Below are positions 3,050-19,326 of a stretch of 44,937 nucleotides of DNA, in pieces. Source of the stretch: Limisphaerales bacterium (lineage in GTDB: Bacteria > Verrucomicrobiota > Verrucomicrobiia > Limisphaerales > UBA1100); NCBI GenBank assembly GCA_014382585.1, contig JACNJL010000020.1:1-44937 (forward strand). Direction: 5' to 3'. Position numbers and translations under genes: made by a program. The notes below the pieces were generated by a model. That model was not told the origin of the DNA, searched no databases, and was given only the letters and a program-made list of their open reading frames with translations. Every line of letters starts with the position of its first letter. Positions within the stretch are counted from its first letter, which is position 1.

Positions 3050-3870
3050 TATGGAGTGGGGGTTGGTGCCAAGCCGGATTCCGGCATAGTGCGGCGCCAG
3101 TCTTTGATGATTGTGTTGTAGAGCTTCACGTCCTCGGCATCACCGGAGGAAACCAGCGTATTCACGATGGTCGCCTGATTGGTCGGAGCCATGAACTGAA
3201 ATATCTTGGGGTTCAATGCAGGATCATTATCCTGCGTTGCTCGGATAAGGTTTCTGAGGTTCGCCTCACGCGCCGCCGCATCCCCTTGATTCATGATATC
3301 TTCATAAATACCTGCCAAACGCATCAGCTTATTCGTTTCGTTCTGGCGAATTTGAATCACTTTGCCCTCAAATAATTTATCCAAATGTGCGCGGATCGTG
3401 GTGATGTTGTTGGTGTGAAAATGCATTTCCTTGAGTTGTTCATTGATGTGACTGTTCAACTCTTCCAATTCCCTCTCACGTTGTTTTAGATAATTCTCGC
3501 GTGCCTGAAGCCGCTGAATCAGGTCGCTCAATCCGGGATCCGTGATTTCCAAATCACCCGCGGCGGTACTCCGATTGATATCCCCGAATCGCCGGTCAAT
3601 TGTGCGTTTATTGGCCTCTTCGTTTACATCATGTTTAAGGGATTCAGCGGTCTCTGCCGTGTCCACCATGCTCCGGGGCTTTTCGGCTTCCTTCTTTTCC
3701 TCAATCTTTTTTTCCTCTGCCGCCTGCTCGGCGACCCCGGATTTCTCAAGTGCCTCCTGCAACAGCACGTCTTTCGATACCAACGTCAGCCCCACCAGCG
3801 TGGCGATAAATAAGATTCCTCCCAGCAAGGCGACGAACCATCTTGATTTCAAAATCTTTTTCATAATCAT
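3049..3870 (-). CDS. MotE/YlxF/FlbB-like membrane coiled-coil protein
   Basis: A 273-residue protein with one N-terminal membrane anchor (about residues 10-31), a charged linker, a coiled coil at about 112-150 (RLQARENYLKQRERELEELN) and a helical C-terminal part that resembles the MgtE-N-like tail of MotE proteins (LMRLAGIYEDIM, then FLAP-like FQFMAPTNQATIV). It sits exactly between fliJ and fliK. In Bacillus this place holds ylxF and in spirochaetes flbB, both of this architecture. Those relatives act at the collar, stator or export apparatus, so a periplasmic or collar-associated role is the best inference. The family call rests on topology and position more than on residue identity. Confidence 0.7.
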   Translation of the reverse strand: MIMKKILKSRWFVALLGGILFIATLVGLTLVSKDVLLQEALEKSGVAEQAAEEKKIEEKKEAEKPRSMVDTAETAESLKHDVNEEANKRTIDRRFGDINRSTAAGDLEITDPGLSDLIQRLQARENYLKQRERELEELNSHINEQLKEMHFHTNNITTIRAHLDKLFEGKVIQIRQNETNKLMRLAGIYEDIMNQGDAAAREANLRNLIRATQDNDPALNPKIFQFMAPTNQATIVNTLVSSGDAEDVKLYNTIIKDWRRTMPESGLAPTPTP

Positions 3871-3876
3871 CCTCCG

Positions 3877-4332
3877 TTAAATTTTTGCGGCCGCTCCTCT
3901 GGCTTCGCGCAGCAACACCATTTCGTCGATGGCGTTTTGCTCCGTGCGACGGGCTTCGTGCTGGTGCAGTGTTTGTTTTTTGTCGCGCATTTTTTCGAGT
4001 GCCTCGCGGCGTTGACGGGCTTCCAACAGCGATTGCCATTTTTCATCCATCACACTTTGCAAGCGAAGCAATTCCGGTTCCAACTCAGCCAACTGCGCGC
4101 GCAATGATCGCAGAGAGCCCTGCAATTGAGCCAAATCGCCGCTCTGCGCCTGGCCGTCGAAGGCGCTGCGGCAAGCCGTTAAATTCGCATCCACCGCTTC
4201 ATCCAACGCGCGCCAGTGCAGTTGCAGCGTTTCCACTGCGCCGCGCGCCTGGGCGTACACGTCGCTGGCGGCTTGTTCCTCATTGGAACGAACTTCCAGC
4301 ACGGTCTTGAGTGAAAAGTTAAACGGTTTCAT
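3877..4332 (-). CDS. fliJ: Flagellar export chaperone / ATPase stalk FliJ
   Basis: FliJ is the coiled-coil stalk inside the FliI hexamer that links the ATPase to the export gate. This 151-residue protein is nearly all helical: it starts MKPFNFSLKTVLEVRSNEE, the typical FliJ opening (F.F.L..VL..R...E), and continues as an uninterrupted alpha-helical antiparallel hairpin rich in Gln, Leu, Arg and Glu. Only one base separates it from the fliI stop, and 6 nt lie before the next gene. Sequence conservation in FliJ is weak, but length, opening motif and position after fliI agree. Confidence 0.88.
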   Translation of the reverse strand: MKPFNFSLKTVLEVRSNEEQAASDVYAQARGAVETLQLHWRALDEAVDANLTACRSAFDGQAQSGDLAQLQGSLRSLRAQLAELEPELLRLQSVMDEKWQSLLEARQRREALEKMRDKKQTLHQHEARRTEQNAIDEMVLLREARGAAAKI

Positions 4333-4333
4333 T

Positions 4334-5788
4334 TCAGGCCATCATTGGCGGTTGGCCGCCGGGTTGTTGTTGCGGTTGAAATGGTTGCGGCGCAAATTGA
4401 TCTCCGGGCTGCCCGACCCCTTGTACGGCTTGGGCGGCTTGGGCTTGGCCTAAGGTTTGGATGAGTTGTTCCCAGCTTTCATCCCGGCCATTGCCGACGG
4501 TGGTTTCCTGCCGCAAAAAATCGCGCATTGGTTCGTGCAAACTGATGGCTTCGTCGATTTTTGGATTGCTGCCGGCTTGATACGCACCGATGGAAATCAA
4601 ATCCTGACTCTTGCGATACACCGCCATGCTTTCGCGCGCGTGGCCCATATGGGCGCGTTGCTCGGGCGTGAGCAAATCATGCGCCAACCGGCTCACACTT
4701 TCCAAAACATCAATAGCCGGATAATGATTTTGCGAAGCCAATTCGCGCGAGAGCACCAGGTGCCCATCGAGAATGGACCGCGCGGCGTCGGCCACCGGAT
4801 CGTTCATATCATCGCCTTCCACGAGCACATTAAACAATCCGGTGATGGAGCCGTGCTCGTTGTTGCCCGCGCGTTCGAGCAATTGCGGCAGCAACGAAAA
4901 GACTGAAGGCGTGTAGCCGCGCGAACTGGGCGGCTCGCCAATCGCAAGGCCGATCTCGCGCTGGGCCATTGCGAAGCGCGTGATGGAATCCATCATCAAC
5001 AACACATTTTTGCCCTGACTACGGAAATGTTCAGCAATCGTCATTGCCAAAAAAGTTCCCTTCACACGGGCCAGCGCCGGCTCATTGGAGGTAGCCACGA
5101 CGACCACGGATTTTGCGCGGCCTTCTTCATCGAGATCGCGTTCCAAAAATTCGCGCACTTCACGGCCTCTCTCCCCGATGAGCGCGATGACGTTTACATC
5201 CGCTTCTGATTTACTGGCCATCATTCCCATCAAAGTGGATTTACCCACGCCGCTGCCGGCAAAGATGCCCAGGCGTTGACCGCGGCCGAGCGGCGTAAAG
5301 GTATCGATCGCTTTGATGCCGGTTTCAAACGTTTGATCAATGCGGCCGCGTTTCAGGGGGTGCGGCGTTTCGAGGTTTAGCTCGGCGAGCGGCAATTGAG
5401 GGATGGCGCCCAAATCGTCGAGCGGTTGGCCCATTCCATCAATCACGCGGCCCAACAATTCTTCGCCCACGGGCACGCGCAGGGAATGGCCGGTGGCCAC
5501 CACTTCGCTGCCGGGACAGATGCCCTGCACTTCGCCGAGCGGCATGAGCAGCAGATTGCGATCACGGAAGCCCACTACTTCGGCCAACAGTTTTTGGCCG
5601 GTGATGCGTGACTCGATGCGGCAAATTTCGCCGACCGACGCCAGCGGGCCTTGCGATTCGATGACCAATCCGATCATCTGCGTCACGCGCCCGCGGTTCT
5701 CGACGAGGCGGGTATTGGACAGGCGCGAGCGCAACTGCCGCACCCCTTGGCTCATGCGGGAACTGGTTTTTTGTTCGTCGGCAATCAT
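4334..5788 (-). CDS. fliI: Flagellum-specific export ATPase FliI
   Basis: Cytoplasmic ATPase of the flagellar type III export system. The Walker A motif GIFAGSGVGKST is at about residues 173-184 and the Walker B region NVLLMMDSITRFAMAQRE follows at about 262-280. The type III ATPase signature PPSSRGYTPSVFSLLPQLLERAG is also present. The catalytic block GERGREVREFLE is intact. The length of 484 is slightly above the usual 440 because of a Gln/Pro-rich C-terminal tail (QPFQPQQQPGGQPPMM). It is preceded by fliH (6 nt) and followed by fliJ (1 nt), the standard export-ATPase trio. Confidence 0.97.
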   Translation of the reverse strand: MIADEQKTSSRMSQGVRQLRSRLSNTRLVENRGRVTQMIGLVIESQGPLASVGEICRIESRITGQKLLAEVVGFRDRNLLLMPLGEVQGICPGSEVVATGHSLRVPVGEELLGRVIDGMGQPLDDLGAIPQLPLAELNLETPHPLKRGRIDQTFETGIKAIDTFTPLGRGQRLGIFAGSGVGKSTLMGMMASKSEADVNVIALIGERGREVREFLERDLDEEGRAKSVVVVATSNEPALARVKGTFLAMTIAEHFRSQGKNVLLMMDSITRFAMAQREIGLAIGEPPSSRGYTPSVFSLLPQLLERAGNNEHGSITGLFNVLVEGDDMNDPVADAARSILDGHLVLSRELASQNHYPAIDVLESVSRLAHDLLTPEQRAHMGHARESMAVYRKSQDLISIGAYQAGSNPKIDEAISLHEPMRDFLRQETTVGNGRDESWEQLIQTLGQAQAAQAVQGVGQPGDQFAPQPFQPQQQPGGQPPMMA

Positions 5789-10273: not shown

Positions 10274-10651
10274 TTATCGCGTTTTAATCGCCGAACGTAG
10301 TTTGGAAAACGTTCCGGAAATCATTTGGGTCTGCATGTGGTGGGCCACCATGTTTTTCTGTAACAGCATTAGCTCCTTCTCAAGCTGCACTGAGTTGCCA
10401 TCGCGATTCTGCGCCGTGGCGGAAGTATCCACCGTGATCTTCGCCTGCACCCCGCGCACGGCATCGGCCGAGCCGGTGCCAATGGCGCGCGACAACTCGG
10501 AGGCAAACGTGGACTGCACGTCCATCCGCTTGTAATGCGGAGTCTCGACATTCGCCAAATTGCTGGCGATGGCCTCCTGCCGCAGCGTGGAAGCATCGAG
10601 CATCTTCTTCACGCCTTGGTAATTGGCACCGCTAAAAAGCGCATCAATCAT
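10274..10651 (-). CDS. flgB: Proximal rod protein FlgB, first gene of the minus operon
   Basis: Proximal rod subunit of 125 residues. It has QEAIASNLANVETPHYKR near residue 28-45, and a C-terminal helix with ELMLLQKNMVAHHMQTQMIS. The start MIDALFSG at 10651 fits the usual FlgB opening. A near-consensus sigma-54 promoter lies at 10663-10678, and its expected transcription start (about 10652) falls directly before this ATG, so the mRNA would be almost leaderless. No ribosome binding site can exist inside such a leader. An internal ATG at 10603 would leave a 49 nt leader but would cut off conserved N-terminal residues. Confidence 0.95.
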   Translation of the reverse strand: MIDALFSGANYQGVKKMLDASTLRQEAIASNLANVETPHYKRMDVQSTFASELSRAIGTGSADAVRGVQAKITVDTSATAQNRDGNSVQLEKELMLLQKNMVAHHMQTQMISGTFSKLRSAIKTR

Positions 10652-10662
10652 GCCCCGCGTGC

Positions 10663-10678
10663 AGCAAGCCCCGTGCCA
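10663..10678 (-). promoter_or_regulatory. Sigma-54 (-24/-12) promoter for the flgB operon
   Basis: On the minus strand the sequence reads TGGCACGGGGCTTGCT, which matches the sigma-54 consensus TGGCAC-N5-TTGCW at every defined base, with the essential GG and GC separated by exactly 10 nt. Transcription is expected about 12 nt past the GC, at about 10652, one base before the flgB ATG. An NtrC-type activator able to serve it is encoded at 33139-34557. Confidence 0.85.
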
Positions 10679-10867: not shown

Positions 10868-10883
10868 TGGCCCAGGATTTGCT
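10868..10883 (+). promoter_or_regulatory. Sigma-54 (-24/-12) promoter for the 10956-fliA-mot operon
   Basis: The sequence TGGCCCAGGATTTGCT has GG and GC separated by 10 nt and a perfect -12 element TTGCT; the -24 element differs from TGGCAC at one base. The expected transcript start is about 10894, leaving a leader of about 62 nt before the ATG at 10956. A small CCTTG/CAAGG hairpin lies in that leader at 10910-10925. Confidence 0.75.
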
Positions 10884-10955: not shown

Positions 10956-13900
10956 ATGAATCTGCGAACCATTCAAGTTACCGCTCTGCTGGGCGGCGCG
11001 CTGATATTTCAGGGTGCCCTGCCCCCGCGTGCGGGAGGTGCTGCGGGTGGTGCTGAATCCTCTCCGGCGCCGGCGATGCCACCGCGGTTGGTGCCGGAAA
11101 CTCCCGGACAGGCTGCCGGACGATTGATGGCTGAGCATTGGGTGGTGATTTTGCGGAGTTGGTTTCAGGATAGTGCGCAATTTGTGGGACACCGCCAAGG
11201 TTTGGTGATTGCGGCAGATCACTTGGACAAACAATTTCCAGTAGCGCCTTGGACTCACCGGCCATTGTGCGGTCCGATGGCGTTGGCGCATCATTTGGCT
11301 CCGCTGTTGCCGGTGGGCGGCGGCCAGCCCCATCCTGAGGAATGGCTGAATCTCTACGCGAACAAAGTTCAAATCGCTCGTTACCAAAAAATTCTGGAAG
11401 ATATTACCCACGTGTTCCAACGGCGCGGCATGTCACCCCTCGTCGCCCACACTGCGGCCATGCGTCAAATTTACACGCGCTGGGATCTTTATGAGCATCT
11501 CATCAAGTTTGGAGCGCCCCCCAAAACACAACAACCGCGCATCTCCAAAAATCCTTACGATCCGCATGCCATTTCCAGTGACGCCACCGACTATTATAAC
11601 CGCGGGCTGATTTGCCAACGGATCGGCAATTTCAAAGATGCCGCTGCCGAGTACGAACGCGCCACCCGCTCACGTCACGCCATGGCGCAGGCGAGCCTCG
11701 CGTATCTTTATGAAACCGGCCAAGGCGTGTCCCGCGACCTGATGAAAGCGCTGGAACTTTACCAGCTCGCCGCTCAACAGGGCCATTCGGTGGCGCAATA
11801 CAATCTCGGCCGCATTTACCAAAACGGGCTCAAGCACCTCAATCAAGTGGTTTCTCCCAACCCCGCACTGGCCGAGCAGTATCTGCGCCGCGCCGCCGCA
11901 CAGGGCGTGGTGGCCGCCTATCATCAACTCGGCATCCTCTATTACACCCAAGGTGGCCGCGTGAATATGGCCGCGCTCACACCGGAGCAGCTCAAACTTT
12001 GGGATAAGAACAACGACGGCCAAGTCCATCCGTCGGAGAACCGTTTATATCAGGACGCGCACGACCATTTTTTGTTGGCTGCCCGACAGAGTTATGGCCC
12101 GTCGCTGCACGCGCTGGGCGTGATGTATCAACAGGGCCACGGGGTGAGTGTTGATCCGGGACGCGCGGCGCATTGGCTGGAACAAGCGGTCAAACACGAT
12201 CAACCCGATTCCTTTTACAACCTCGCCCAACTACACGAAAACGGTCTCGGCGTGCCTCCCAATTTGCCACGCGCCTTTATACTGTATCGGCAGGCCGCCC
12301 GAATGGGGCACGCACCCAGCCAATATAATCTCGGTTTGTTTTATTATCAGGGCCGTCGCGCGGGCGAGCAAGTGACCCTGCAAGTAACGGCAGACTTTGC
12401 CGAGGCGCATCCGGCCGCCTTGCTGACGGCCGAGTTGGCAAAAGCCAGTGCGGTGCTGGCCAGCGCGCAGGCGCGGTATTTGCCGGTGCCCGGCAACGCA
12501 AAATCTCAACGGCTGGAGTTATTCGTACCCGTCGGTCAGGGCCGCCACGCGGCGGAGGTGCTGGGCAAGTGGTACGATGCCGAGCAACCGGGTGAAATGC
12601 CCGAACCAACATACGAAGTGCTGGGCGGCGATGATCCGGTCCGCGCGTATGCGTGGTGGTGGCTGGCCGCGCGCCAACATCAGCAAGCGGCCATCACGGG
12701 GCGCGATTCGTTGCAACGGTTGCTCACTCCCGAGCAACTTCGCAACGCCCGCACTCTGGCCGCCCAACTGCAAGCTGAATCGGCCGCGCCTAGGCCCGTT
12801 AACCCGATGGTGGACGCACAGGCGAACGCCACCTTCGCCGCCAAAGATTGGTCCACCGGATTTTTCGTTTCTCAAAATGGCTACGTCATCACCGGCAAAC
12901 ACCTCAAACACAGCGGCAACCAATATCAAGTGGTCACCGAAAACGGCGCATTCCCGGCGCATGAAGTCGTATTGAGGGGCGATTTAGATCAGTATCTGCT
13001 ACTCAAGGTGAATGGGGATTATCAATTTCCCGCACTCTCGCTCAACTTCAGCCACGGCGTGCGACAGCGTGATCCGGTGCAAGTATTGGGCAACCAATTT
13101 ACCTTCGCCCAACAAGGCACCGGCCCGCGTCCGGCGCTGGCGAAGACCCGCATCTCGGCCATTCTCGGAGCCCAGGCCGATCCGCGATTTTTCACGCTGC
13201 ACAACCCCGCGTTAGGTGATCGGTTGGTCTTTACATTCGAAACCTACCTCGACCGCCGCGGCACGCCCAATGCCGGCAAACACCCTAACATGCCGCGTGG
13301 CGACGACCTGCACCGTCTACAAACAACCAGCCTCAAACGCCTGAAAGCCGCGCTACACGGGGCCCATAACTTACTGGGCAACGCCGACCTGCGCATCGGA
13401 TATATATTGAAAGAAAAACTATGGTACGATGCCATCAACAAACGTTGGCATCGGTTACCCCAACCCCAGGCAAAAGAATTTGGCGCAGGTGAATGGGTCA
13501 TCCTCGACGGTCAACGAATCCGCGAAGCCCCCCCCTTGGAACAAGTGGAAGAAGGCCGTGCATTATTGCAGGTTACCGTTGTGCCCGGCATAATAAATCA
13601 ATCACACGAGACGACACAGACGACACTTCGACTGGCCAAGCTGGTGGAGGAAACGTTGGTAGGGCCGTTTGATGGTTTGAAAAACGACCTCACCTCACTT
13701 GAAAAAGCGCTGGGCGATGCCCACTTCAAAATGCTCCGCCGCACTCCGGGCTTTCGCGGAGTCGCCCTGCTCGATAATCAGGGCCAGGCAATTGGCCTGT
13801 TTTTCCCGGGATACTCAGGGCGCACCCCGGATGTATTTCAAAATTTCAGCTCCTACCACAAACACGTACTGAAGGCCGACCACTTAATCACCTTCCTCAA

Positions 13901-14096
13901 TCGCCTGCCCGATGTGCGTTATCATACACGGCCACCAACACTGCCCAAACTGGCGGCCAGCGAAAAACTCAACTTTGATTCACAAGCTTACCTGCTCGCC
14001 AAAGCACGGTCCGCTATGGTACTCGTACAAGTAGCTGGCGATCAGGCCCCCCCCGCACCTGCGGAGGTGGCCACAAAAGGAGGCACACGCCAATGA
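10956..14096 (+). CDS. Secreted Sel1-repeat protein with EF-hand loop and HtrA-like pseudoprotease domain
   Basis: A 1046-residue protein with a hydrophobic N-terminal signal-like segment (about 5-25). Residues about 205-465 hold five or six Sel1-type repeats (AMAQASLAYLYETGQGV, HSVAQYNLGRIYQNG, PSLHALGVMYQQGHGV, DSFYNLAQLHENGLGV). Among them is one canonical EF-hand loop, D350-N352-D354-G355-E361. Residues about 630-945 resemble a trypsin/HtrA fold: STGFFVSQNGYVITGKHLKH keeps the catalytic His (H649), but the Asp position (GDLDQYLLLKV) reads Gln and the serine motif GNSGGP reads GFRGVA with Arg at 934. It is therefore predicted to be inactive as a protease and may bind peptides or other proteins. 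It leads the sigma-54 operon containing fliA, motA and motB. The function is unknown; a surface or periplasmic role linked to motility is an inference. Confidence 0.8.
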   Translation: MNLRTIQVTALLGGALIFQGALPPRAGGAAGGAESSPAPAMPPRLVPETPGQAAGRLMAEHWVVILRSWFQDSAQFVGHRQGLVIAADHLDKQFPVAPWTHRPLCGPMALAHHLAPLLPVGGGQPHPEEWLNLYANKVQIARYQKILEDITHVFQRRGMSPLVAHTAAMRQIYTRWDLYEHLIKFGAPPKTQQPRISKNPYDPHAISSDATDYYNRGLICQRIGNFKDAAAEYERATRSRHAMAQASLAYLYETGQGVSRDLMKALELYQLAAQQGHSVAQYNLGRIYQNGLKHLNQVVSPNPALAEQYLRRAAAQGVVAAYHQLGILYYTQGGRVNMAALTPEQLKLWDKNNDGQVHPSENRLYQDAHDHFLLAARQSYGPSLHALGVMYQQGHGVSVDPGRAAHWLEQAVKHDQPDSFYNLAQLHENGLGVPPNLPRAFILYRQAARMGHAPSQYNLGLFYYQGRRAGEQVTLQVTADFAEAHPAALLTAELAKASAVLASAQARYLPVPGNAKSQRLELFVPVGQGRHAAEVLGKWYDAEQPGEMPEPTYEVLGGDDPVRAYAWWWLAARQHQQAAITGRDSLQRLLTPEQLRNARTLAAQLQAESAAPRPVNPMVDAQANATFAAKDWSTGFFVSQNGYVITGKHLKHSGNQYQVVTENGAFPAHEVVLRGDLDQYLLLKVNGDYQFPALSLNFSHGVRQRDPVQVLGNQFTFAQQGTGPRPALAKTRISAILGAQADPRFFTLHNPALGDRLVFTFETYLDRRGTPNAGKHPNMPRGDDLHRLQTTSLKRLKAALHGAHNLLGNADLRIGYILKEKLWYDAINKRWHRLPQPQAKEFGAGEWVILDGQRIREAPPLEQVEEGRALLQVTVVPGIINQSHETTQTTLRLAKLVEETLVGPFDGLKNDLTSLEKALGDAHFKMLRRTPGFRGVALLDNQGQAIGLFFPGYSGRTPDVFQNFSSYHKHVLKADHLITFLNRLPDVRYHTRPPTLPKLAASEKLNFDSQAYLLAKARSAMVLVQVAGDQAPPAPAEVATKGGTRQ

Positions 14097-14365
14097 CTCA
14101 ACTTGCCACTACTCTTGCAGGAGCGCTCGGCTTTGCCTTGGTGTGCGCGCTTGGATTTTATCAGGATCGCGGCTGGGATCGCACGCTCACCAGCGCCGCC
14201 ATTGCTGCATTAGCATTTGGATTAGTAGGCCATTGGTGGATGCGCCTGTGGTTTGCCAGCCTCGTCAATGCCCAACAGGAACAAGCTCAGGTGGAAATGG
14301 AACGACAACAACAAGCGCAAGCCGAGGCACTGATCGCCGCCCAAGAAGAGGCCACTCCGGAATAA
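14093..14365 (+). CDS. Small membrane protein of unknown function
   Basis: I do not recognise this 90-residue protein. It has two hydrophobic helices (about 5-22 and 34-55, the second ending in WWMRLWFASLV) and a Gln/Glu/Ala-rich helical tail (about 58-90) likely to form a cytoplasmic or periplasmic coiled coil. Its ATG overlaps the stop of the preceding large gene by four bases (ATGA), so the two are probably translated together and may act together. The next gene, fliA, starts 23 nt later. Confidence 0.7.
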   Translation: MTQLATTLAGALGFALVCALGFYQDRGWDRTLTSAAIAALAFGLVGHWWMRLWFASLVNAQQEQAQVEMERQQQAQAEALIAAQEEATPE

Positions 14366-14388: not shown

Positions 14389-15183
14389 ATGGCCCAAGCC
14401 ACCACCAGCCCGAAAAAACGACCCCAGCCACAACGCATCGCGGCGGCCCGGGCGTATCAAAAAATGCACCTCACCGAGGTGACCGAGGAGGAATTGCTGC
14501 TCAACTACGCGCCGGTGATTAGCCAGATGGTGCATCGCTTTGCGCCGCTAGTGCGGGTGACGGTGGACGTGGATGACTTGAAAAATATCGCCTGCCTCGC
14601 GCTCATCCAAAGCGCACACACGTTTGACCCCAGCTTAGGCGTAGTCTTCGAGGCGTATGCGCGGATGCGCATTCGCGGGGCGATCCTCGATGAGATTCGA
14701 AAATCCCAACCGCTTTCGCGCTCGGTGTATTCCCGGCGGCGCGAGCTGGAAGGCAGTCTCGAAAGTTTGCGCATAGAGCTCAACCGCCAGCCCACCGAAG
14801 AAGAAATCGCCGAACGCATCGGCACCACGGTGGATGGCTACCGCGACTTGCTCGACCAACTGCGGCCGGTGATTTTTGTGCCGCTGCATCAAATGCTCGA
14901 AAGCGATGATGAATTCGGCACGGGCGACCAGCATGTGGCTGATCTCACCCAGCCCGATCCATCCGACAATGCCGGCCGGCACGAGCTGCACGCGATGATT
15001 CGAGACCGCATTTTGCAGCTCTCTCGCCAGCAACAGAAGGTTTTACTCTTGTTTTATTACGAAGGATTGCGCATGAAAGACATCGCGGAGTTGATGAACA
15101 TCAGCGAAAGCCGCGTGTGCCAGGTGAACACCGAGGCCGTGTTGTCATTGCGCGCCTATTTGCAACGACAGGAGCGTGTGTAA
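14389..15183 (+). CDS. fliA: Flagellar sigma factor FliA (sigma-28)
   Basis: Alternative sigma factor for late flagellar genes. The 264-residue protein has region 2 at about 40-110 (APVISQMVHRFAPLV, VDVDDLKNIACLALIQS, FEAYARMRIRGAILDEIRKS), region 3 at about 112-150 (LNRQPTEEEIAERIGT) and region 4 with the HTH at about 202-258 (LLLFYYEGLRMKDIAELMNI, SESRVCQVNTEA). This is the FliA/WhiG/SigD form rather than RpoD or RpoH. AAGGA lies 12 nt before the ATG. It sits in an operon behind a sigma-54 promoter, so FliA would be made in the middle stage of assembly. A likely target is the flagellin promoter at 36969-36996. Confidence 0.95.
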   Translation: MAQATTSPKKRPQPQRIAAARAYQKMHLTEVTEEELLLNYAPVISQMVHRFAPLVRVTVDVDDLKNIACLALIQSAHTFDPSLGVVFEAYARMRIRGAILDEIRKSQPLSRSVYSRRRELEGSLESLRIELNRQPTEEEIAERIGTTVDGYRDLLDQLRPVIFVPLHQMLESDDEFGTGDQHVADLTQPDPSDNAGRHELHAMIRDRILQLSRQQQKVLLLFYYEGLRMKDIAELMNISESRVCQVNTEAVLSLRAYLQRQERV

Positions 15184-15198
15184 CAAGGAGGAAAAACA

Positions 15199-16101
15199 AT
15201 GCTAGTAATTGTAGGACTAATTATCATCTTTATCGGCGTGCTCACCGGCTTTGCCATGGCCGCCGGCGGTGGACACGGCATCGGCGAAATGTTTCAAAAA
15301 GCCGAATGGACCGCGGCCATGAGCCTCATCCACGCCAATGAATTCATCGCGCTGGGCGGCATGGTATTGGGATCCATGATTGTGATGGCTCCGATGACCG
15401 TGCTCAAAGGCGTGATCTCGCAATTGCTGGGCACCCTCAAAGGCGCGCCCTTCGCCAAAGCGGATTACGAGGAACTCTTCAAGTGCATGTACGAGCTGTT
15501 CCAGCTGGGCCGACGCGGCGGCATGATCGCGCTGGAGGAACACGTCATGAATCCCGAGGCGAGCAGTCTTTTTTCTAAATACCCGAAATTCCACGGCAAC
15601 CATCATGCGGTGGAATACATGTGCGACGGCTTGAAACCGATTGTGGATGGCCGAATCAAACCCGACCAACTCGAGCCGCTGATGGCCAAGAGCCTGCACA
15701 CTATGGAAGAGGAACATCACGGCCCAATTTTAGTCTTGAACAAAGTGGGCGACGGGCTGCCGGCGTTTGGGATTGTGGCGGCGGTGTTGGGTATCATCGT
15801 GGTGATGATGTACAAGCTCGGGCAAGGCGGCGAAGCCGTGGGACAGGGCATCGCCACGGCGCTCGCGGGAACGTTTTTTGGAATCTTCGGTTCCTATTGC
15901 GTCGTGGGACCGCTCGCCACCTGCGCGGAATTTAACGGCCATTCGGAAATGAATTATATGAAGGCGATCAAGTCCGGCGTGGTGAGCTTCGCCAATGGCT
16001 TGCCGCCACTGGTGGCCTGCGAAGTGGGCCGGCGTGAGCTGACTTCCGACGTCCGCATGGGCTCCGGCGAACTGGAGGACACTCTGAAATCCTCATCCTA
16101 A
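15199..16101 (+). CDS. motA: Flagellar stator protein MotA
   Basis: Inner-membrane stator subunit that couples ion flow to rotation. At 300 residues it is the long proteobacterial-type form. Helix 1 (2-22) and helix 2 (about 34-55), a large cytoplasmic loop with PFAKADYEELFKCMYELFQL and the charged GRRGGMIALEEHV, then helices 3 and 4 (GDGLPAFGIVAAVLGIIVVM at about 190-209, and ALAGTFFGIFGSYCVVGPLA). The Pro of LPAFGIVAAV is the conserved channel proline. A very good ribosome binding site (AAGGAGG, 15185-15191) lies 7 nt before the ATG. Confidence 0.96.
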   Translation: MLVIVGLIIIFIGVLTGFAMAAGGGHGIGEMFQKAEWTAAMSLIHANEFIALGGMVLGSMIVMAPMTVLKGVISQLLGTLKGAPFAKADYEELFKCMYELFQLGRRGGMIALEEHVMNPEASSLFSKYPKFHGNHHAVEYMCDGLKPIVDGRIKPDQLEPLMAKSLHTMEEEHHGPILVLNKVGDGLPAFGIVAAVLGIIVVMMYKLGQGGEAVGQGIATALAGTFFGIFGSYCVVGPLATCAEFNGHSEMNYMKAIKSGVVSFANGLPPLVACEVGRRELTSDVRMGSGELEDTLKSSS

Positions 16102-16139: not shown

Positions 16140-16862
16140 ATGGCAGGAGCTGGAGGAGCATGGAAAGTAGCGTTCGCGGATTTTGTAACCGCGATGATGG
16201 CACTGTTTATGTTGTTGTGGATTCTGAACCAGGACGAAAAGGTGAAAGGCGAAGTGCAGCAATACTTCAATACGCGCTTCAAGAGCGTCACCAAAATGTC
16301 CGTGGGCATCATCCCCATCCAAAACGCGGACCTCATCGAGGCCAAGCGCGCGGTGTTCGACAATGCCTCGGCCATTGACCTGCAGTTCATCCGCCGCATC
16401 AACGACGACATCGTTCGAGTATTTGCCGACAACCCGAACTTCATCGACATGAAAACCATGCGAGTGCAGATGACCAGCGAAGGATTGTTGATCGAATTTT
16501 TTAACGACCCCAACCGGCGACTCTTCGAAGGCCCAACCGCCACGCTCACAAAATACGGGCAGACGGTATTCGATACGCTGTCTTATGTGCTGGCGCGGCA
16601 CCGTACCACACGCGTGGAAGTGGAAGGCCACACCGCGAGCAACATCGAGCTGGATGGCGAGCCGGTAAACACATGGGCCCTCTCCACACAACGGGCACTC
16701 GTCGCCCGCGAGGCGATGGATCGCAAAGCTATGAAATCCGAACAATTCATCAAAATAGCTGGCTTCAGCAGCAGCAAACCGCTCTCGGATTATTTACACG
16801 ACCTCACCCATTCTCACCACGATCGCGTGACCATTATGGTTCGCGCGGGTAACCCCCGTTAA
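16140..16862 (+). CDS. motB: Flagellar stator protein MotB
   Basis: Stator partner of MotA. The single transmembrane helix starts almost at the N-terminus (WKVAFADFVTAMMALFMLLW, residues 8-27) and carries the ion-binding Asp at residue 14. The plug and linker follow, then an OmpA-type peptidoglycan-binding domain at about 130-238 (RVEVEGHTASN, STQRALVAREAM, AGFSSSKPL). At 240 residues it is shorter than the enterobacterial form and lacks a long cytoplasmic N-tail. GGAG lies about 12 nt before the ATG. The sequence does not tell whether H+ or Na+ is used. Confidence 0.95.
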   Translation: MAGAGGAWKVAFADFVTAMMALFMLLWILNQDEKVKGEVQQYFNTRFKSVTKMSVGIIPIQNADLIEAKRAVFDNASAIDLQFIRRINDDIVRVFADNPNFIDMKTMRVQMTSEGLLIEFFNDPNRRLFEGPTATLTKYGQTVFDTLSYVLARHRTTRVEVEGHTASNIELDGEPVNTWALSTQRALVAREAMDRKAMKSEQFIKIAGFSSSKPLSDYLHDLTHSHHDRVTIMVRAGNPR

Positions 16863-16864
16863 CC

Positions 16865-17299
16865 ATGGCCCGCGAATTTATCCCATTTGGCGGTGAGTTG
16901 GCCGATCCCTCGGAAGCCCCCACATTTGTGCGACGCGAGGCCCCCGGCTTAGAATCCGATGAGCTGGACACCCCCGCGGCCGCGCCGGTCACGCCCGCTG
17001 AAGCGGTAGATTTAACCGGGCACATTCGGAAAATCATTCTGGAAGGCGGTCTCACCGGCGAAGCGGCCGAGAACGCCATTTCCAAAATCAAATCTGCGGT
17101 GGCCGCCGCACCCGCGCGCGTGGCGTTGCCAGAAATTAAAATTACCGCCCCCGCCGCGCCCGAAACCGCAACCGACGAATCAAGCGACGGTGAGCCCAAA
17201 CTCGCCACCATCGAGTACGAGCGCGAGGAGGAAATCATCAAACGCATCCGCGTGGGCTGCACTTGCGGCGAGACGATCCTGCTCGACTGCGATTACTAA
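16865..17299 (+). CDS. Small protein of unknown function with a CxC...C C-terminus
   Basis: I do not recognise this 144-residue protein. The first 110 residues are Pro/Ala/Glu-rich and mostly disordered, with one short helical piece (LTGHIRKIILEGGLTGEAAE). The C-terminal 28 residues look folded: EREEEIIKRIRVGCTCGE followed by TILLDCDY, with three Cys (CTC and DC) that could bind zinc. It starts 2 nt after motB and ends just before the fliD promoter, so it is the last gene of the fliA-mot operon. No signal peptide is seen; a cytoplasmic location is likely. Confidence 0.65.
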   Translation: MAREFIPFGGELADPSEAPTFVRREAPGLESDELDTPAAAPVTPAEAVDLTGHIRKIILEGGLTGEAAENAISKIKSAVAAAPARVALPEIKITAPAAPETATDESSDGEPKLATIEYEREEEIIKRIRVGCTCGETILLDCDY

Positions 17300-17379: not shown

Positions 17380-19326
17380 ATGGATTTACAAGTAGCAGGC
17401 TTAGTTTCCGGCTTTGACTGGAAATCGATGGTGGACCAACTCTCGAACGTAGAGCGGGCACCCCAGCGCCGTATGCGCGTAGAGCAGCGCACCATCAGCC
17501 AAAAAAATAACGCGCTCACCACGCTCAAAAATGAGCTCACCACGCTGAAAGCCAGTTCCAAGACACTGAAAGAAACCGAGCTATACGACAGCCGGTCGGT
17601 CAATTCCAGCCAAGCACACACTACCGCCAGCGCTCAGGAAGGTACTTCCTCCGGTGATTACCGTTTCGAAATTTATCAACTCGCCACCGCCGCCAAGCAA
17701 CTGGGCAATACCGATGTCGGTGCCAGCGTCACCTCCAGTGCCGCACTTGATTCCGGCGGATTTGCCATTGCGGTTACCGAAGGCACGGTCACCGTACAAG
17801 GCAAGCAAATCACCATTGCCACCAGCGACTCGCTCGACACCACGCTGGCCGCGATTAAAACAGCCGTGGGCGGCAGCTTCGATTACTCCATCAGTAGCGA
17901 CAAAGTTACCTTCACCGATTCGAGCGAGGTAGTCCTCGGCAGTGCCACGGACACCAGCAATTTACTGCAAGCCCTGCGCCTCAATGCCAACGGCACCAGC
18001 AGCATCACCAGCTCCGCCAACCTCGGCGGCATGGATCTTTCTAAAACCGCTGACGCCGCCAACTTTACCGACGGCGCCGGCAGCGCCAGCGGGTCTTTCA
18101 AAATCAACGAAACCTCCATCACCTACGCCGCCACCGACACCATCACGGACATCCTCGACAACATCAACAACTCCGAGGCCGGTGTGTACGCGAATTACGA
18201 CACGGTGAACGACCGCTTTCTCATTACCAACAAAACCGAAGGCGACGTAGGCATCACCCTCGAAGATGTGAGCGGCGATTTCCTCGCCAAGACCCGCCTG
18301 CTCACCGCCAACAGCGGCGCCCTCTCGCGCGGCAATAACTTGCTTTATAAGGTAAATGATAATGGGCCCCTTGAGAGTCGCAGTAACACCATTACCCAAA
18401 ACAGCTCAGGTGTGCAGGGCCTCTCCGTCACCGCTACCCAAGCCAGCGGGGCATCGCGAATCAGCAGCGTGGATACCTCCGGCGAAAGTATAACCACCAC
18501 TGAAAGTCACAACTATTCCACCGGCGATGCCGTGACAATGTACAGCCCCGGCACCGTGCCCGGCGGGTTATCCTCCAGCACCACTTATTACGTAAAAGTC
18601 ACGGCCAATGATAGCTTCACGCTGCACACCACCAAAGCCGATGCAGAGGCGGGCACCAGCGCAGTGGACCTCACCGGCGCCCAAAGTGGCGATGTCTATT
18701 TTCTGGATAGCAACCCCAAAAAAGCAACGATTTCTGTGAAATCCGATACGGAAACCGTCAAAACTGCCATCGCGGATTTGATCGCGCAGCTCAACAAAGT
18801 GCAATCGCTCATCTCCTCGCAGATCGCCAGCAGCACGGATGCCGACGGCAAAATCACGCTCGGCGTATTGGCTTCCGAGACGTTGCCCACGGAAATTGCC
18901 CGTGAGCTGCGCTCGACAATCACCGGCGACGTCTCCGGAATCACCAGTACCATCAAACGACTGGAATCCATCGGCTACACCTCCAGCGGTTACACCAATG
19001 AAATCTCGCTGAGCGATTCAGACAAACTCGACGATGCGCTCCGCGATAATCTCGGCCAAATCAAAAGCCTCTTCACCACCGCCACGTACGGCGTAGGCAT
19101 TGCGATGTATGATTATTTGGACAACGTACTTGATGACGACGGGGCGATGGCCACGACACAGAAAAATATGACCGATCGGGTGACCGACATCACCCAGCAA
19201 ATCACGGATCACGAACGGCTCGTGCAATCCAAACGGGACCAGCTCGTTCGCAGCTTCGTTGCGATGGAATCTTCGCAGGCCAAAATAAACCAACAAATGA
19301 GTTTTCTAAACGCCAGATTTAAATAG
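17380..19326 (+). CDS. fliD: Flagellar filament cap protein FliD
   Basis: Caps the filament and folds flagellin at the tip. Length 648. The N-terminal FliD_N domain is clear (VAGLVSGFDWKSMVDQLSNV, E-RAPQRRMRVEQ, LTTLKNELTTLKAS). The C-terminal FliD_C helices contain LIAQLNKVQSLISSQIASST, TLPTEIARELRSTITGD, RLESIGYTSS and the closing coiled coil ending in MSFLNARFK. Residues about 368-448 are a beta-module not expected in the family core (HNYSTGDAVTMYSPG, VPGGLSSSTTYYVKV, SFTLHTTKADAEAGT); it is the same module found twice in FlgE at 1-1186. The gene heads its own sigma-54 operon. Confidence 0.95.
   Translation: MDLQVAGLVSGFDWKSMVDQLSNVERAPQRRMRVEQRTISQKNNALTTLKNELTTLKASSKTLKETELYDSRSVNSSQAHTTASAQEGTSSGDYRFEIYQLATAAKQLGNTDVGASVTSSAALDSGGFAIAVTEGTVTVQGKQITIATSDSLDTTLAAIKTAVGGSFDYSISSDKVTFTDSSEVVLGSATDTSNLLQALRLNANGTSSITSSANLGGMDLSKTADAANFTDGAGSASGSFKINETSITYAATDTITDILDNINNSEAGVYANYDTVNDRFLITNKTEGDVGITLEDVSGDFLAKTRLLTANSGALSRGNNLLYKVNDNGPLESRSNTITQNSSGVQGLSVTATQASGASRISSVDTSGESITTTESHNYSTGDAVTMYSPGTVPGGLSSSTTYYVKVTANDSFTLHTTKADAEAGTSAVDLTGAQSGDVYFLDSNPKKATISVKSDTETVKTAIADLIAQLNKVQSLISSQIASSTDADGKITLGVLASETLPTEIARELRSTITGDVSGITSTIKRLESIGYTSSGYTNEISLSDSDKLDDALRDNLGQIKSLFTTATYGVGIAMYDYLDNVLDDDGAMATTQKNMTDRVTDITQQITDHERLVQSKRDQLVRSFVAMESSQAKINQQMSFLNARFK

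Follow-up and report, generated by a model that had tools for sequence, protein, structure and literature searches.

The window (the whole stretch of 44,937 nucleotides analyzed here, from a Limisphaerales bacterium) carries a gene whose product is assigned, from its sequence, to the Sel1-Trypsin_2 family as a flagellum-linked pseudoprotease. In six families of a single Verrucomicrobiota order, this protein probably serves as a scaffold of the flagellar motor that has so far gone undescribed. An intact His-Asp-Ser triad was found in none of its 34 positional orthologues, compared with 20 of the 23 non-flagellar Sel1-trypsin paralogues of the same order. A search of open-access papers found no published description of the protein.

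Domain organization and loss of the catalytic triad

The open reading frame at positions 10956 to 14096 of the forward strand starts with ATG and encodes 1046 amino acids. A Sec signal peptide with a basic n-region and a hydrophobic core, IQVTALLGGALI, was predicted at approximately residues 1 to 30 (10956-11045, bounds approximate), and this layout recurs in nearly all orthologues. Scanning the whole sequence revealed neither a second strongly hydrophobic stretch nor a transmembrane segment beyond the signal peptide. The following region (approximately residues 31 to 205; 11046-11570) has no assigned fold and is missing from the short orthologues in the alignment. It precedes a TPR/Sel1 repeat region (approximately residues 206 to 612; 11571-12791) with a TPR-like repeat recognized by Pfam at residues 212 to 237 and several Sel1 repeats (PF08238, 121.7 bits versus a cut-off of 30.7, E 7e-36). 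In an alignment with its catalytic Sel1-trypsin relatives, the trypsin domain corresponds to approximately residues 613 to 1046 and is divided into an N-terminal lobe (residues 613 to 752; 12792-13211), an insert of 176 residues directly before the serine loop (residues 753 to 928; 13212-13739) and a C-terminal lobe with Arg934 in a GFRG motif and a conserved SMVLVQV tail (residues 929 to 1046; 13740-14093). All these features lie on the forward strand.

The N-terminal lobe matched PF13365 (Trypsin_2) over residues 634 to 747 with 34.0 bits, above the curated cut-off of 27.6 (E 6e-8), and the same cut-off was passed by 8/8 homologues and by three orthologues checked. An hhalign comparison of 16 flagellar with 15 non-flagellar relatives gave a probability of 99.9% (E 2e-31) and covered both lobes, while the flagellar-family profile matched structures of HtrA1, HtrA2, DegP, DegQ, DegS, and MamO in the PDB. 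Because of these profile matches, we consider homology to the trypsin/HtrA fold secure at the sequence level, as had been proposed for this half of the protein in the initial annotation, and a chance trypsin match was ruled out on the same grounds. In single-sequence structural searches, DegS was the closest match. AlphaFold2, run with four close sequences only, returned a mean pLDDT of 29 for the C-terminal half and 39 for the full protein, values too low for a confident model of the double beta-barrel. A PDZ domain was searched for with Pfam in the window protein and its homologues, and none was matched. The missing PDZ domain and the closer relationship to Sel1-trypsin proteins ruled out a copy of HtrA/DegP.

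Of the catalytic residues, only His649 (12900-12902) is retained. The aspartate column holds Gln679 (12990-12992) and the serine column Arg934 (13755-13757), in agreement with the initial reading of these three positions. The stretch that reads DDPRxFQISVPV-QPGNSGG in catalytic relatives corresponds here to ADPRFFTLHNPALGD, followed by the 176 inserted residues and then by TPGFRG in place of QPGNSGG. The His-Asp-Ser triad and GNSGG motif of an active peptidase are missing from the window protein, and none of the 34 orthologues has an intact triad. Across the orthologues, His is replaced by Asp, Ser, Glu, Lys, Gln, Arg, or Ala, Asp by Gln, His, Gly, Ser, Asn, or Pro, and Ser by Arg, Leu, Gln, Gly, Ala, or Val; His649 is retained in genera g1 and g5, and Asp in one orthologue family. 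Homologues with an intact triad, which the initial annotation had named as evidence against a pseudoprotease, do exist, all of them non-flagellar paralogues. The pseudoprotease reading withstood this check since catalytic loss is conserved in the 34 positional orthologues. Conservation of the two substitutions themselves was only partly borne out: Arg occupies the serine position in 14 of 15 sequences in the window family, but other residues are found at both positions in other lineages.

A single loop of calcium-binding type, DKNNDGQVHPSE (residues 350 to 361; 12003-12038, forward strand), is inserted among the Sel1 repeats. Its pattern, D-x-[DN]-x-[DN]-x-x-hydrophobic-x-x-x-E, was shared by the full-length homologues of genera g1, g3, and g5 (11 of 11), was not seen in genera g2 and g4 or in other families, and arose in just 7 cases when the protein was shuffled 2000 times. 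The loop had been annotated as an EF-hand. It does not satisfy the strict definition: although D-x-N-x-D-G is present, its positions 9 and 13 deviate from PROSITE PS00018, and no Pfam EF-hand model matched the window protein. We therefore refer to it as an EF-hand-like calcium loop.

The insert before the serine loop has no counterpart in any of the 23 paralogues or in the short orthologues, and its length ranges from 84 to 282 amino acids within the window family, the longest case (G016) including a run of unread bases. A sub-threshold LysM match (E 0.016) was also detected among the Sel1 repeats of a genus g2 homologue (L061, residues 415 to 452). Since the calcium-type loop, the variable insert and the LysM-like stretch are all additions, the window family appears, from these alignments, to keep adding to a common Sel1-pseudoprotease core. 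Two other long homologues have sequence resembling the LysM stretch of L061, with no Pfam match.

Flagellar operon and distribution within the order

The gene is the head of an operon, and its stop codon overlaps the ATG of the next gene (ATGA). Downstream, on the forward strand, lie genes for a predicted membrane protein of 90 amino acids (14093-14365), kept upstream of fliA across the order, the sigma factor FliA (sigma-28; 14389-15183; Pfam sigma-70 regions 2, 3, and 4), the stator subunits MotA (15199-16101; MotA_ExbB, MotA_N) and MotB (16140-16862; MotB_plug and OmpA, that is, a plug and an OmpA-like domain), a 144-amino-acid protein with no Pfam match (16865-17299) and the filament cap FliD (17380-19326; FliD_N, FliD_C). 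A sigma-54 type -24/-12 site, TGGCCCaggatTTGCT / TGGCCCAGGATTTGCT, was found at 10868-10883 on the same strand, 72 bp upstream of the start codon. It matches TGGCAC-N5-TTGCW at 10 of 11 positions, a score that shuffling the intergenic region 300 times never produced. The corresponding site also scored 10/11 in 12 of the family's 14 loci and 9 in the remaining two, and was weaker in other families. The initial annotation of a Sel1-repeat protein leading stator and sigma-28 genes under a sigma-54 promoter is thus corroborated. On the opposite strand, flgB (10274-10651) is the first gene of a divergent operon, flgB-flgC-fliE-fliF-fliG-fliH-fliI-fliJ, which flanks the pseudoprotease gene in orthologous loci. 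One rpoN gene and six flagellin matches were found in the window genome, which therefore likely encodes a complete flagellum.

Several features of these loci were noted in passing. The C-terminal part of the 144-amino-acid protein is conserved at the same position across the order. A perfect sigma-54 site on the reverse strand (10663-10678) stops 11 bp short of the ATG annotated for flgB (10651), and this spacing was seen in 13 of 16 loci of one set plus three further loci, 16 in total. Transcription should therefore start at or beside the ATG and yield a leaderless flgB mRNA, except if flgB actually starts further downstream. In families f36 and f2, motA is followed by two motB-like genes in a row (L134, 6316-7740, reverse strand; L135, 12498-13871, forward strand). 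Genus g313 has approximately 1.4 kb between the Sel1-pseudoprotease gene and fliA. In L164, this gap holds a small membrane-protein gene and a 375-amino-acid match to Mutator-family transposases (3511-4635, reverse strand; PF00872, E 2e-7, above the cut-off). Since a gap similar to that of L164 occurs upstream of fliA in L165-L171, this suggests a domesticated transposase relative in the flagellar operon of g313.

We then considered how widely the gene occurs, the relatives being genome assemblies, of which the named ones are metagenome-assembled or environmental isolates. In the window family, it lies beside flagellar genes in 19/19 motA-bearing genomes, partially where contigs end. A 587-amino-acid version occupies the equivalent slot in two further families, and three more came to light when 320 genomes of the order were searched and the gene neighborhoods retrieved. 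The slot divergent from flgBC-fliEFGHIJ and upstream of fliA-motA-motB-fliD thus holds the gene in six families of the order, a linkage to the flagellar cluster that is conserved across lineages. Flagellated lineages in which a different gene order precedes fliA do not have the gene, as seen at 14 loci within the order and at four from the wider class. In one genus of family f7, there are two flagellar systems; no relative of the gene was detected at the second fliA-motAB locus in the five genomes examined, and relatives of the same genus carry it at the first locus, which in one of the five (G682) is cut by a contig end. Because many flagellated relatives lack the gene, flagella as such do not require it. 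Genomes of genus g313 (for example L164 and L173, G687) have two different fliA-motAB loci each, one with the pseudoprotease and one without, which suggests two flagellar systems.

Origin and selection

Sequence comparison places the origin of the protein in a family of exported Sel1-trypsin proteases. The non-flagellar Sel1-Trypsin_2 paralogues of the order have the same domain order and the same C-terminal tail (hhalign 99.9%, as above), but they are only about 500 to 550 amino acids long, were not found at flagellar loci and have neither the insert nor the calcium loop. They often adjoin a Sel1 protein of about 200 amino acids; this pairing, with a Sel1-trypsin protein of about 515 amino acids, was observed in G000:C18 (L074), G010, G014, G016, and others in the family. 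The 34 flagellar copies form one side of a branch supported at 100/100, in an unrooted tree with long branches. Such a tree is in line with a single recruitment, after which catalysis was lost, and we infer the direction from protease to dead copy because the majority of relatives are intact. Loss of activity also occurs outside flagella, since three non-flagellar paralogues depart from the triad: in the window genome's own paralogue (G000:C18, L074) the Asp is Asn, and in two others the Ser is Leu.

Within the genus, dN/dS of the gene was 0.12-0.15, indicating purifying selection. The values were lower for fliA and motA (0.04-0.08) and similar for motB (0.09-0.20). Within the protein, the N-terminal region evolves fastest (0.20-0.31), the Sel1 region has values of 0.09-0.11, and the C-terminal lobe is the most constrained (0.06-0.09). 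As this lobe contains the dead serine loop, the dead domain is still being maintained for some purpose.

Proposed role and known motor proteins

The initial annotation had held that the protein is not a known flagellar part. This stands for the protein itself, but the concept is less unprecedented than claimed because of a pseudoprotease, PflC (PMC12222027), and a protein with a SEL1 motif, MotX (PMC9093738). PflC of C. jejuni has an HtrA-like fold without a triad and forms the medial disk of the motor, for which co-option of a protease as a motor scaffold has been proposed (PMC12222027), and its loss lowers stator occupancy (PMC11870540). The window protein resembles it as a flagellar protein with an HtrA-like trypsin fold and a lost triad, whose periplasmic location would here follow from the Sec signal. 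It has the dead domain of PflC but not its two PDZ-like domains. By its published description, PflC is also shorter (364 amino acids) and has no Sel1 repeats, whereas the window protein has Sel1 repeats and a large insert. Its relatives within the same Verrucomicrobiota order point to an origin separate from PflC. Vibrio MotX, a component of the T-ring, binds PomB as a stator partner (PMC9093738) and is likewise exported, stator-linked and endowed with Sel1 repeats; however, it has only about 211 amino acids and no trypsin domain. Homology to MotX was rejected, as its model (NCBIfam NF047621) matched weakly over the Sel1 part (E 2.5e-6, 27.1 bits versus a cut-off of 330). PflA and PflB, the TPR scaffold of stators (PMC12222027) at the proximal disk of Campylobacterota, are by description also periplasmic repeat solenoids that position stators, but they are two proteins with TPR instead of Sel1 repeats and no protease domain. 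MamO provides a further case of a trypsin-like pseudoprotease repurposed for binding (PMC4794232). It was matched by our profile with an E-value of 1e-4 but belongs to another system, the magnetosome. MamO is not known to carry Sel1 repeats. In terms of sequence, the window protein joins a dead protease of the PflC type and Sel1 repeats of the MotX type in one chain and is a member of neither group.

We therefore favor, as the probable though by no means certain role, a periplasmic structural component of the flagellar motor. Most likely it would act as a scaffold or adaptor in helping to recruit the MotAB stator or to hold it around the rotor, a proposal made concrete by the two precedents, PflC and MotX. 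Binding of a partner, with the stator among the candidates, had been suggested in the initial annotation. The Sec signal would place the protein in the periplasm, the Sel1 solenoid could offer a docking surface, and the trypsin-like domain, no longer an enzyme, may act as a binding or assembly module by analogy with PflC in Campylobacter. In such an old co-option of a Sel1-trypsin protease, catalysis would have gone while binding surfaces were retained, and the insert and calcium-type loop may be later additions of the family that tune binding or rigidity.

Operon membership alone cannot tell a stator partner from a protein with a secretion, assembly or regulatory role. An unlikely alternative is a chaperone or a peptidoglycan or outer-membrane adaptor for flagellar assembly, acting on rod, P-ring, sheath, or a secreted protein and not on the stator. 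Rod and basal-body genes are indeed divergent neighbors, one homologue has the sub-threshold LysM-like stretch, and both Sel1 and trypsin-like domains are binding modules of a generic kind; however, the cotranscribed side is that of fliA-motAB-fliD, and the Pfam matches of the window protein include no accepted domain for binding peptidoglycan. DegS-type proteins act as sensors of outer-membrane proteins, and a regulatory sensor of this kind would bind a periplasmic signal or client and, without cutting, report the state of assembly to FliA through the 90-amino-acid membrane protein. We regard this as rather improbable: the ATGA overlap with the small membrane-protein gene, the slot directly before fliA and the closeness of DegS in structural matches speak for it, but a PDZ domain is missing. 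Moreover, the 90-amino-acid gene and the pseudoprotease are separable, since the former is also found before fliA where the latter is missing, both in flagellated lineages and in second flagellar systems.

Very little likelihood attaches to a remaining enzymatic activity, whether by unusual chemistry or by cutting in trans with residues supplied by a partner. His649 in g1 and g5 and the Asp of one orthologue family would be its remnants, but Ser never occurs together with His and Asp in any orthologue, the replacements vary by lineage and the insert lies directly before the serine loop. As for a non-functional, decaying gene, the lost catalytic residues and a frameshift in G005 might suggest one, but the dN/dS given above ruled it out and the frame is open across six families, so that its probability is negligible. 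The G005 frameshift is itself likely an assembly error because neighboring flagellar genes there also show split frames.

Beyond a stator or motor scaffold as such, a trypsin-like protease could have been recruited into the motor independently, in parallel to PflC, with one Sel1-pseudoprotease chain combining a stator-holding solenoid and a lattice-forming dead protease in a motor architecture distinct to this order. We consider this quite conceivable, somewhat short of an even chance. Discoveries of lineage-specific periplasmic motor parts come mainly from Proteobacteria and Campylobacterota, and our limited search of the open-access literature returned no published account of such parts in Verrucomicrobiota. 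The question is directly testable because of the contrast in intact triads (0/34 versus 20/23) and the genomes with two systems and the gene in only one. If a dead HtrA-like domain was indeed recruited twice, protease folds would be ready-made building blocks for motor scaffolds.
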